Shown piece by piece: positions 386 to 4,507 of a stretch of DNA of 34,456 nucleotides (the first letter of the stretch is position 1; each line of letters starts with the position of its first letter). The position numbers and the translations under genes are program-made. Source of the DNA: a virus; IMG/VR virus record IMGVR_UViG_3300034104_001701, positions 1 through 34,456 of that record. One strand, given 5' to 3'. The notes under the pieces were generated by a model, which made no database searches, was not told where the DNA came from, and saw nothing but the letters and a program-made list of their open reading frames with translations.

Positions 386-482
386 AATGTAGGCAACTGC
401 TTACCAACACGGCTGAAGACTGCTGCCAGTTAAATCGGCTAAGAAGACGCTGCTGCCCTCGCAATCCTCATGCGTGTAGGTT

Positions 483-622
483 GTTGGTGGCTGGATTCGA
501 ACCAGCGCTGCGATTCATTTTAACTTCACCAGCATTAGCCGTGCACGCCCGCTGAGATTCGTTGCAACTTCACCAGCATCGGCCGATTAGGCCCATGACT
601 CTACCAACTGAGTTACACCAAC
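483..622 (-). tRNA. tRNA-like element 1: normal acceptor, D and T arms, expanded middle
   Basis: The acceptor stem GTTGGTG/CACCAAC (616-622 with 483-489) is perfect. The D-arm ACTC-AGTTGGTA-GAGT lies at 598-613, and the T-arm at 490-506 abuts the acceptor as in a real tRNA. The region that should be about 23-40 nt (anticodon and variable arms) is 91 nt (507-597). It contains an imperfect tandem duplication with a 44-nt period (512-541 against 556-585, sharing AACTTCACCAGCAT). No 5-7-5 anticodon arm is visible, so no isotype is assigned. CCA is not encoded. It may be a degenerate tRNA, a tRNA carrying an insertion, or a tRNA-like processing signal. Confidence 0.5.
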
Positions 623-2540: not shown

Positions 2541-2646
2541 AACATCTCCTGCTCCTCCTGAAAAGAAACAGCGGCAGGCGGGAGGTGCGCTTTTCAGCCC
2601 GGGGATCAATCCAGACCTAGCCGTGTTTCACAAATAAACCTACTGA

Positions 2647-2727
2647 CTGTGCTGGCGGGATTTGAACCCGCGACCTCCCATTCTCAGTGCACTCGATGGG
2701 CGCTCTACCAGCCTAAACTACAGCACA
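2647..2727 (-). tRNA. tRNA of undetermined isotype with a 14-nt anticodon loop
   Basis: The acceptor TGTGCTG/CAGCACA (2721-2727 with 2648-2654) is perfect. U8-A9, a weak D-stem GTTT/GAGC with loop AGGCTGGTA, a 5-nt variable loop, and a canonical T-arm (GCGGG, TTCAAAT, CCCGC at 2655-2671) are all in place. The 5-bp anticodon stem CCCAT/ATGGG is also perfect, but its loop (2682-2695) is 14 nt instead of 7, and no choice gives U33 at the right place. CCA is not encoded. It lies directly 3' of the structured RNA segment and upstream of the replication operon. It could be an insertion-bearing tRNA, a pseudo-tRNA or a tRNA-like element. Confidence 0.75.
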
Positions 2728-3308
2728 GCGTTCGGTATCTTGTCTATTATTCTACACCAAGTTTTGTTGTGTTCATGTCTTTACATGAATTTACAACTCT
2801 TTTTTTGGTGAACCTACTTGCTGACTTCTCGGAGGTCATCCTGCATCGTCTAGAACAATGACTCGTCAGCTTTCGGTTCTTATTCTCTACTTATCGCAAA
2901 TCAAATAATTCCACCCAAAGACCCCCCTACCCCACACAGTGAAGTAGAGAGGGAAGGTTCCACCCCCGCGAACGGGATCATCATGCTACGGATTCTCACC
3001 GTATGCCCCAGGCTTGATGATGCGACCAGCCCACCGGATTGTTCGGGAACTGCCCCCTAGCCTTACGGCATACCGGCTACCCTTTTCTTCCGCGCCCTCA
3101 GGTTCAAGTCTTGCTATCGTGCGGAGTACGGTCTAGGCCAGAAAGCAAAAAACCCCTCAATTCGTTCTGGTGGATCTTGGCTCTTGGCGTGAGCAGCAAC
3201 AAGGCGATTGAAAGTAGGCAAAAGCCTCGCTTGATGCTTGTCAAGACCCACCACAGCGAACTGAGGGGTTCTTTACCTACTTTCATCGCCTAGATGCCAC
3301 TCTAGACA
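2728..3308 (-). ncRNA. Candidate large structured noncoding RNA (about 580 nt)
   Basis: No convincing gene fills this stretch. It begins at the expected start site of a strong leftward promoter (3315-3344) and ends at the tRNA. Strong pairing elements, given in plus coordinates, are: 3151-3173 with 3248-3270 (20 of 23 complementary); 3203-3218 with 3276-3290 (15 bp), interleaved with the first pair as a pseudoknot; a tiered hairpin with 2969-2973/3041-3045, 2977-2983/3015-3021 and 2987-2991/2999-3003; 2820-2825/2865-2870 enclosing 2832-2839/2858-2864; and 2766-2770/2793-2797 enclosing a perfect 7-bp hairpin. Size, phage context and tRNA adjacency recall the GOLLD and ROOL classes. I cannot confirm membership without a covariance-model search. 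Confidence 0.55.
2766..2806 (+). terminator. Plus-strand hairpin followed by a T-run
   Basis: The stem GTTGT/ACAAC encloses TTCATGT-CTTT-ACATGAA and is followed by TCTTTTTTT, which is intrinsic-terminator architecture on the plus strand. No plus-strand gene precedes it, so it may block antisense transcription, or it may simply be part of the minus-strand structured RNA. Confidence 0.45.
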
Positions 3309-3314
3309 AGTCAG

Positions 3315-3344
3315 ATCATACACGATCTAAAAATCCCGTGTCAA
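3315..3344 (-). promoter_or_regulatory. Strong sigma70-like leftward promoter
   Basis: On the minus strand, TTGACA (3339-3344), an 18-nt spacer and TATGAT (3315-3320) give a perfect -35 and a one-mismatch -10. The -35 box overlaps the stop codon of the Cro-like gene. It should start RNA near 3308, feeding the structured RNA, the tRNA and the replication operon. Confidence 0.75.
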
Positions 3345-3499
3345 CTTTTTTCGAACCACTCCGGCTTGATGACCATCAGTTGATACAAGCGCCCCTCTGG
3401 CAGCTTCTTCCACTGCCACACAGCGCCCCTGCTCACGCCCAGCAGCCTGGCTAGCTTGGACTGTGAGCCTGCTCGTTCGATTGCCTCTTGTTTTGTCAT
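3341..3499 (-). CDS. Cro/YdaS-like helix-turn-helix repressor
   Basis: This 52-aa DNA-binding protein starts at the ATG at 3497-3499 (MTKQEAIERAGSQSKLARLL) and ends within the downstream promoter. It is almost entirely one helix-turn-helix: helix 2 SQSKLARLLG, turn VS, recognition helix RGAVWQWKK, then LPEGRLYQLMVIKPEWF. The pattern AIERAGSQSKLARLLGVSRGAVWQW-K-LPEGR is characteristic of Cro/CI-type YdaS antitoxin/repressor proteins. It is divergent to the rightward early genes and probably binds the operators between them. No partner CI or integrase was found. Its ATG lies 6 nt after a -10-like TAGAAT with no Shine-Dalgarno, so the mRNA may be leaderless. Confidence 0.85.
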   Translation of the reverse strand: MTKQEAIERAGSQSKLARLLGVSRGAVWQWKKLPEGRLYQLMVIKPEWFEKS

Positions 3500-3505
3500 C
3501 CGTGC

Positions 3506-4232: not shown

Positions 4233-4507
4233 AGATCACAATCACCGTCCATATCCATCATCGCAAATACGCTTGGGAAAACAAGGGCTATTTTTTTGCC
4301 CTCCCAAGCAAGTTTGATGATGACGATTCCCGTACCTACGTCGGCCCCCAAGAAGTGGAAATAGAAGTCCCGGACGACTTTGACCCACGCCCTGCGCAGA
4401 TCGCTGCGCTTGATGCCCAGAAGCAGAAGATCATGGCCGACTTTAATAAGTCCGTAGCCGAAATTAACGAGCGTATCAGCCGCCTACAAGCACTGGAGTA
4501 CAAATGA
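4229..4507 (+). CDS. Hypothetical protein with C-terminal coiled coil
   Basis: This 92-aa protein has a beta-rich N-terminal part (KITITVHIHH, VEIEVPDDFDP) and a C-terminal helix of about 35 residues from PAQIAALDAQKQ to ISRLQALEYK that has coiled-coil character. The coding ends overlap both neighbours by 4 bp. It lies immediately before the ERF-type annealing gene. A partner role in that system is conceivable, since some phage annealing proteins have small accessory proteins, but this is inference. No signal peptide or membrane segment is visible. Confidence 0.65.
   Translation: MKITITVHIHHRKYAWENKGYFFALPSKFDDDDSRTYVGPQEVEIEVPDDFDPRPAQIAALDAQKQKIMADFNKSVAEINERISRLQALEYK

Follow-up and report, generated by a model that had tools for sequence, protein, structure and literature searches.

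The window analysed here is the complete 34,456-base IMG/VR virus record IMGVR_UViG_3300034104_001701, whose protein set is that of a P22-like podovirus (portal, head closure and DNA transfer proteins, terminase, Erf and a RecE-type exonuclease). Its minus strand carries, in order, a Cro-like gene, a promoter, about 400 nt of structured RNA, a private spacer, a tRNA and a replication-initiation-like gene (Table 1). The Cro-like gene lies just upstream of the RNA, and its TGA stop overlaps the -35 box of the promoter. The tRNA, called as Asp, has the anticodon ATC, which is unusual for a bacterial tRNA-Asp, and is inserted between the RNA and the replication gene in the window phage and the near-identical contig L002/L166 only. 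Elsewhere in the window, positions 482-622 (minus strand) hold a 141 nt tRNA-like gene (Rfam tRNA, 40.9 bits) with a long insert that contains two imperfect copies of a ~30-nt unit (GCTGGTGAAGTT...AATC.CAGC); a shorter version of this repeat-bearing element lies at 4316-4427 of another locus, L008, directly before the promoter of the module that we call A below.

Table 1. Features of the RNA cassette and its surroundings in window coordinates.
Feature	Coordinates	Strand	Basis
Cro-like repressor gene, 52 aa	3341-3499	minus	Translation; PHROG 409 transcriptional regulator, E 1.4e-13
Sigma-70-type promoter, TTGACA (3344-3339)-N18-TATGAT (3320-3315)	3315-3344	minus	11/12 matches
Module A, class A1	~3147-3309	minus	40-sequence alignment A4, pair counts
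A1 5' hairpin	3305-3290	minus	Alignment A4
A1 helix H1	3289-3276/3218-3204	minus	Alignment A4
A1 terminator stem H2 (predicted)	3270-3242/3179-3151	minus	Alignment A4
A1 loop pairing	3298-3296/3188-3186	minus	Alignment A4
A1 T-run (T6)	3152-3147	minus	Sequence; directly after H2
Module B1, eleven helices	2907-3131	minus	56-sequence alignment A1, pair counts, mutual information
B1 pseudoknot-type pairings	3124-3122/3092-3090; 3102-3100/3082-3080; 3021-3015/2983-2977	minus	Alignment A1
Spacer outside the conserved RNA, common only to the window and the near-identical contig L002/L166	2729-2906	minus	Locus comparison
tRNA, called Asp, anticodon ATC	2645-2728	minus	tRNA call; neighbour of the RNA only in the window phage and L002/L166
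Replication-initiation-like gene, the operon's first long gene after the cassette	2184-2609	minus	PHROG 9474, E 3.5e-13

A preliminary description of this DNA had noted a minus-strand promoter that opens a stretch rich in long-range pairing and devoid of a convincing gene, and all three observations held up. The promoter is present with 11 of 12 consensus matches, and the region has 4 promoter-like sites where shuffles predict 0.9. The minus strand of 2729-3311 folds with -224 kcal/mol (z = -6.6), a value equalled by none of 100 shuffles, and the plus strand folds less strongly (z = -4.6). The 60-codon frame at 3104-3286 is not conserved at the protein level: it has an ATG in just 18 of 40 homologues, its distances to anchors occupy all three classes modulo 3, and it was rejected as a gene. 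A protein-coding origin, whether through this frame or through the longer chance frames in homologues, was rejected; stop codons interrupt every frame in almost all homologues of module B1 (below).

Homologous loci were obtained by way of the replication protein and the Erf protein and were then searched for the RNA, which about 50 of them carry wholly or partly. The part common to the homologues runs from the promoter to about 2900, and the ~160-180 nt beyond it and the tRNA are confined to the window and L002/L166. The conserved RNA is about 400 nt long and has its 3' end near 2907. The earlier statement that the RNA ends directly at a tRNA is therefore right about the neighbour, in the window phage and L002/L166 only, and wrong about the end, since the conserved RNA stops ~180 nt earlier; we rejected the tRNA at 2728-2645 as an integral part of the RNA because, among the loci checked, it is adjacent only in these two records. 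Sharing of the RNA is modular, in that some loci have only module A and others only module B1. The cro-rep interval of other loci has the same layout in different sequences, namely a promoter, a hairpin element with a T-run, and a block of 230-300 nt. Judged by covariation, positions 3309-2907 of the window (minus strand) are two structured RNA modules, A and B1, and the RNA is real.

The evidence for module A is as follows: in 40 sequences, 91.6% of the A1 cells are paired (82.0% in shuffles), 143 cells are changed on both sides (46.8 in shuffles), and none of 500 shuffles does as well. The preliminary description had picked out a 23-nt arm pair (3151-3173/3248-3270) and a 15-bp pair interleaved with it (3203-3218/3276-3290), and both acquire compensatory changes in these 40 homologues; the arms of H1 are variable in class A1. 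A T-run behind the 23-nt arm pair, overlooked in that description, makes the arm pair terminator-like. H2 and the T6 form a GC-rich hairpin followed by a T-run at a conserved position, so that this end of A1 looks like an intrinsic terminator candidate; a simple terminator scan, which had a loop limit of 8 nt, did not list H2. In a second class, A2, 97 of 104 elements have a 5' hairpin whose loop is exactly complementary to 6-9 nt within the terminator hairpin. These pairings comprise about 35 different sequences, and only 2 of 957 mismatched pairings reach 7. At least two more terminator-like classes were found, giving at least four A classes.

Module B1 was analysed in an alignment of 56 non-redundant members without an insert. 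RNAalifold gave 35 pairs, 14 of them changed on both sides, and mutual information (77 sequences, effective number 43) ranked complementary pairs at the top, some of them crossing those of RNAalifold. From these results came a 45-pair structure with three pseudoknot pairings, picked on the same sequences used for its pair counts; in it 95.6% of cells are paired (79.0% in shuffles and 31-45% in slid controls) and 29 pairs change on both sides, values reached by no shuffle of the 56 homologues. Columns within the B1 search motif are invariant by selection, and helix 7 (columns 92-94/100-102) and part of helix 6 are uninformative alone. The three-tier hairpin formerly drawn at 2969-3045 survives in part: the hairpins P3 (3032-3028/3014-3010), P5 and P6 are supported in homologues, but 3021-3015/2983-2977 is a pseudoknot with the P3 loop. 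The check proposed at the outset, covariation of the listed pairs in homologous phage segments, has thus found compensatory changes in both modules, A and B1.

At least 119 viral contigs, of which many are 50-64-kb phages, contain the exact motif taken from the first alignment. Two further blocks, B2 (at least 120 contigs) and B3 (68 contigs), stand in for B1 behind the same A elements and also covary: B2 has 99.1% of cells paired and 14 two-sided pairs, and B3 has 97.2% and 18 (slid controls 32-44% for both). The B1 covariance model also hits several B2 loci where the B block should be (best E 8.7e-10, at L070, which is a B1-like 5' part fused to B2; the others 1e-6 to 1e-2), which indicates that B1 and B2 have a 5' domain in common. 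B2 was not found in the 20 virus records carrying B1. Wherever the 300 nt after A1 elements were examined, they resemble a structured B block, further classes included; putative B classes distinct from B1-B3 lie behind A1 in L483, L495, L501 and L508, in L472, L506 and L556, in L481 and L549, and in L539. By these sequence comparisons, modules are exchanged between related phages, with at least four A classes and at least three covarying B classes.

Some B1 copies are enlarged by tRNA-like inserts, which are present in at least 26 of the 117 copies read. In these copies the apical hairpin is longer by ~20 bp and bears a domain resembling a cloverleaf, in many cases with a stem like the acceptor stem and a hairpin like the T arm of a tRNA; 17 distinct inserts were folded. 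None of the inserts is called by ARAGORN, and a single one exceeds the Rfam tRNA threshold.

A single B1 is the rule in virus records: 19 of 20 hold just one, and the remaining record adds a partial hit to its one copy. The exact B1 pattern has no match in 84,980 species genomes; one of these genomes encodes a relative of the replication protein. The contig concerned belongs to a Comamonadaceae MAG, and its cro-rep interval holds an A2 element and a block of the B2 type. With the covariance model, diverged copies of B1 turned up in 4 of the 401 genomes searched from that MAG's family (one match partial), so the negative result of the exact search is at least partly a matter of sensitivity. The bacterial B1 loci hold phage integrase, portal or replication genes. 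Some of them (L571, L573) have B1 without an evident A, and in L572 the gene after B1 may be convergent. The element of L573 is a Burkholderiaceae prophage. L571 (G416:C287) is an integrase-bearing element in one of the bacterial genomes, possibly satellite-like, with B1 upstream of a 660-aa ORF whose similarity is to functionally uncharacterised phage families and to one named kinase. With blastn, the window region matched a phage collection only in its tRNA part among the matches listed, and the modules as queries found related blocks in two uncultured 'Manatee Spring' phage genomes, the B3 query giving none. In these genomes (MW202753.1 32462-32515 and MW202484.1 33595-33799; loci L284 and L285) the RNA region is annotated as hypothetical proteins.

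Is this RNA a member of a known family? A cmscan of 2600-3500 against Rfam 15 (E <= 10, lax filters) gave the tRNA as its only convincing row, with three other weak rows on the tRNA stretch, and the homologous loci gave only tRNA hits at gathering level. The covariance-model search for which the preliminary description had called thus returned neither family that it had named: we reject membership in GOLLD (no match in the window region or, at gathering level, in the homologous loci) and in ROOL (no match in the cmscan of 2600-3500). Its other suggestion, a new class of similar design, fits a phage RNA that is normally present once per record and has pseudoknots, exchangeable parts and, in some members, tRNA-like elements embedded in a hairpin, although the terminator that divides the transcript and the operon behind it had both been overlooked, as had the Cro-like gene upstream and the replication gene downstream. 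Given the lack of an Rfam 15 match, and of an earlier description in the literature searched, where most subscription papers are missing, we call the RNAs a new RNA family group.

The cassette combines two known kinds of element, a phage attenuator leader and a large ornate phage RNA. GOLLD and ROOL assemble into RNA-only nanocages, and to our knowledge the function of these large phage RNAs has gone without explanation for years. GOLLD is a phage and prophage RNA often near tRNAs, with a complex fold of which one half is more variable and tRNAs sometimes within its linker; many GOLLD RNAs exceed 800 nt (PMC12286853). ROOL, also from phages and prophages, has several pseudoknots and lies near tRNA islands (PMC12286853). 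The cassette is like GOLLD (RF01998) in being a phage RNA with a complex fold; as to tRNAs near or inside the RNA, it has a tRNA neighbour in the window and L002/L166 and tRNA-like inserts in some homologues. It is smaller (~165 plus 230-300 nt, ~400 nt in the conserved part), is divided by a terminator and has an operon behind it; it is like ROOL (RF03087) in its phage or prophage origin and pseudoknots and unlike it in size, layout and the lack of a model match. Among leaders, the put RNA of HK022 is ~70 nt with two stem-loops and renders RNA polymerase resistant to terminators behind it, putR lying ~270 nt downstream of the PR start (PMC9378689). In Gifsy-1 IsrK, a prophage promoter and terminator give a short RNA and a read-through mRNA from one start; the phage group is unrelated, and the available part of the source describes no large B-like RNA (PMC4825925). 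Like the cassette, put is a structured RNA within an early phage operon leader, but it is ~70 nt long and acts on terminators behind it. The lambda pR'-6S-tR' late leader has a promoter, a short terminated RNA and then an antitermination-dependent operon. Its Q mechanism is described in PMC6606751. Unlike the cassette, the lambda leader is not known to have a large RNA after its terminator tR', and Q/qut was not identified in the cassette.

The position of the cassette bears directly on its possible role. A promoter with at least 10 of 12 matches precedes 36% of 174 cassettes (2% in shuffles), and the distance from start to T-run at these enriched promoters is 94-156 nt. The end of A, ahead of B, has a T5 run in 174 of 181 cassettes (96/101 for B1, where the stretch searched was longer and chance T-runs add to the count, 61/63 for B2 and 17/17 for B3), but the 80 nt behind B contain one in only 16 of 184 (16/101, 0/64 and 0/19). 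In the window B1 starts ~16 nt past the T-run of A, so close that B has no room for a promoter of its own. The median distance from B to the next Shine-Dalgarno sequence with a start codon is 32 nt for B1 and 9 nt for B2 (109 and 139 in shuffles); the distance from the B2 end to the start codon is short and fixed in most loci, and that of B1 varies. By simple longest-ORF picks without curation, the first ORF after B shares its strand in 152 of 176 loci (75/98, 59/59 and 18/19 for B1, B2 and B3), and the longest ORF in the 1.5 kb before the cassette is divergent in 52/74, 34/44 and 12/14, in which cases the A promoter is the only obvious one. The longest ORF within 1.5 kb after B1 is on the opposite strand in 25 of 87 loci, though some of these ORFs may be spurious. 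The genes behind the cassette differ (rep, methyltransferases, helicase/primase, TerS, oxygenase), which led us to reject a link of the RNA to one downstream gene and fits a role at the level of the operon better than a gene-specific one.

We conclude that this RNA of freshwater bacteriophages probably controls transcription of the genes behind it. How it might do so is less firm, and the reading we prefer, to which we give slightly less than an even chance, is that the cassette is a two-part operon leader in which a terminator, A, is read through into a large leader RNA, B. Transcription would start at the promoter before A, which would fold into a 5' hairpin and a long terminator hairpin joined by a loop-terminator pseudoknot, and by default RNA polymerase would halt at the T-run and release an RNA of ~95-155 nt. 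If the terminator fails to act, because of antitermination or because transcription from further upstream, for instance from the cro promoter, reads through it strongly, polymerase would enter B, pass its 230-300 nt and continue into the operon, whose first ribosome site is often within tens of nucleotides. That A stops transcription conditionally is what we infer from these features; most speculatively, B may act in cis on the elongating polymerase, by analogy with HK022 put RNA, and thereby let it transcribe the whole operon. The promoter enrichment, the terminator-like end of A, the lack of room for a B promoter, the near absence of terminators after B, the covariation, the module exchange, the nearby ribosome site, the orientation of the next and upstream ORFs and the loop complements of A2 all argue for such a leader. 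Arguing against it are the B1 copies without evident A (L571, L573), the perhaps convergent gene of L572 and the opposite-strand ORFs after B1; known RNA antiterminators are also far smaller (put ~70 nt, PMC9378689), a put-like element would be expected before and not after the terminator it overcomes, and the embedded tRNA-like domains are left without explanation.

These same tRNA-like inserts, which recall the tRNAs in the GOLLD linker (PMC12286853), and the bacterial B1 copies that lack A favour a role of B's own, and with the usual single B1 per virus record and the inconstant downstream gene they suit the main rival, that A plus B, or a processed B, is a free, trans-acting and perhaps oligomeric structural RNA comparable to GOLLD and ROOL, independent of the genes that follow. 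We consider this possible but rather unlikely, as it does not account for the missing terminator after B, the ribosome site close behind, the fixed short distance of the B2 end from the start codon in most loci or the same-strand genes that come next. Phage P4 CI RNA is understood to give RNA-based immunity, and by analogy the terminated A RNA might serve immunity or copy control by acting in trans when a phage with the same leader enters the cell, with specificity set by the variable loop-terminator and H1 sequences. The numerous compensated loop-terminator pairings of A2, the variable H1 arms of A1, the place between cro and rep and the exchange of modules between related phages are consistent with this, but neutral helix covariation yields the same pattern, many phages have the same A class, and the large conserved B is left unexplained, so we regard it as quite improbable. 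Least probable in our estimation is a leader acting on translation, or a riboswitch, in which B responds to a signal or governs how ribosomes reach the first gene: in its favour, only ~9 nt separate the B2 end from the ribosome site and start codon, but the first genes are unrelated and the distance varies for B1.

The combination of an exchangeable promoter/pseudoknotted-terminator module with one of several unrelated or partly related large folds, one of which can host tRNA-like domains, in one functional slot of the genome may define an undescribed phage RNA superfamily with a mechanism that has no known counterpart; we rate the chances of this as about even. Annotation of phage genomes hides such RNAs, as the hypothetical proteins placed there in two public genomes illustrate. 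The group is widespread, with hundreds of occurrences, a set place at the head of operons, a built-in predicted terminator and many natural module swaps, and the swaps, the terminator and the operon place offer direct handles on function that GOLLD and ROOL lack.
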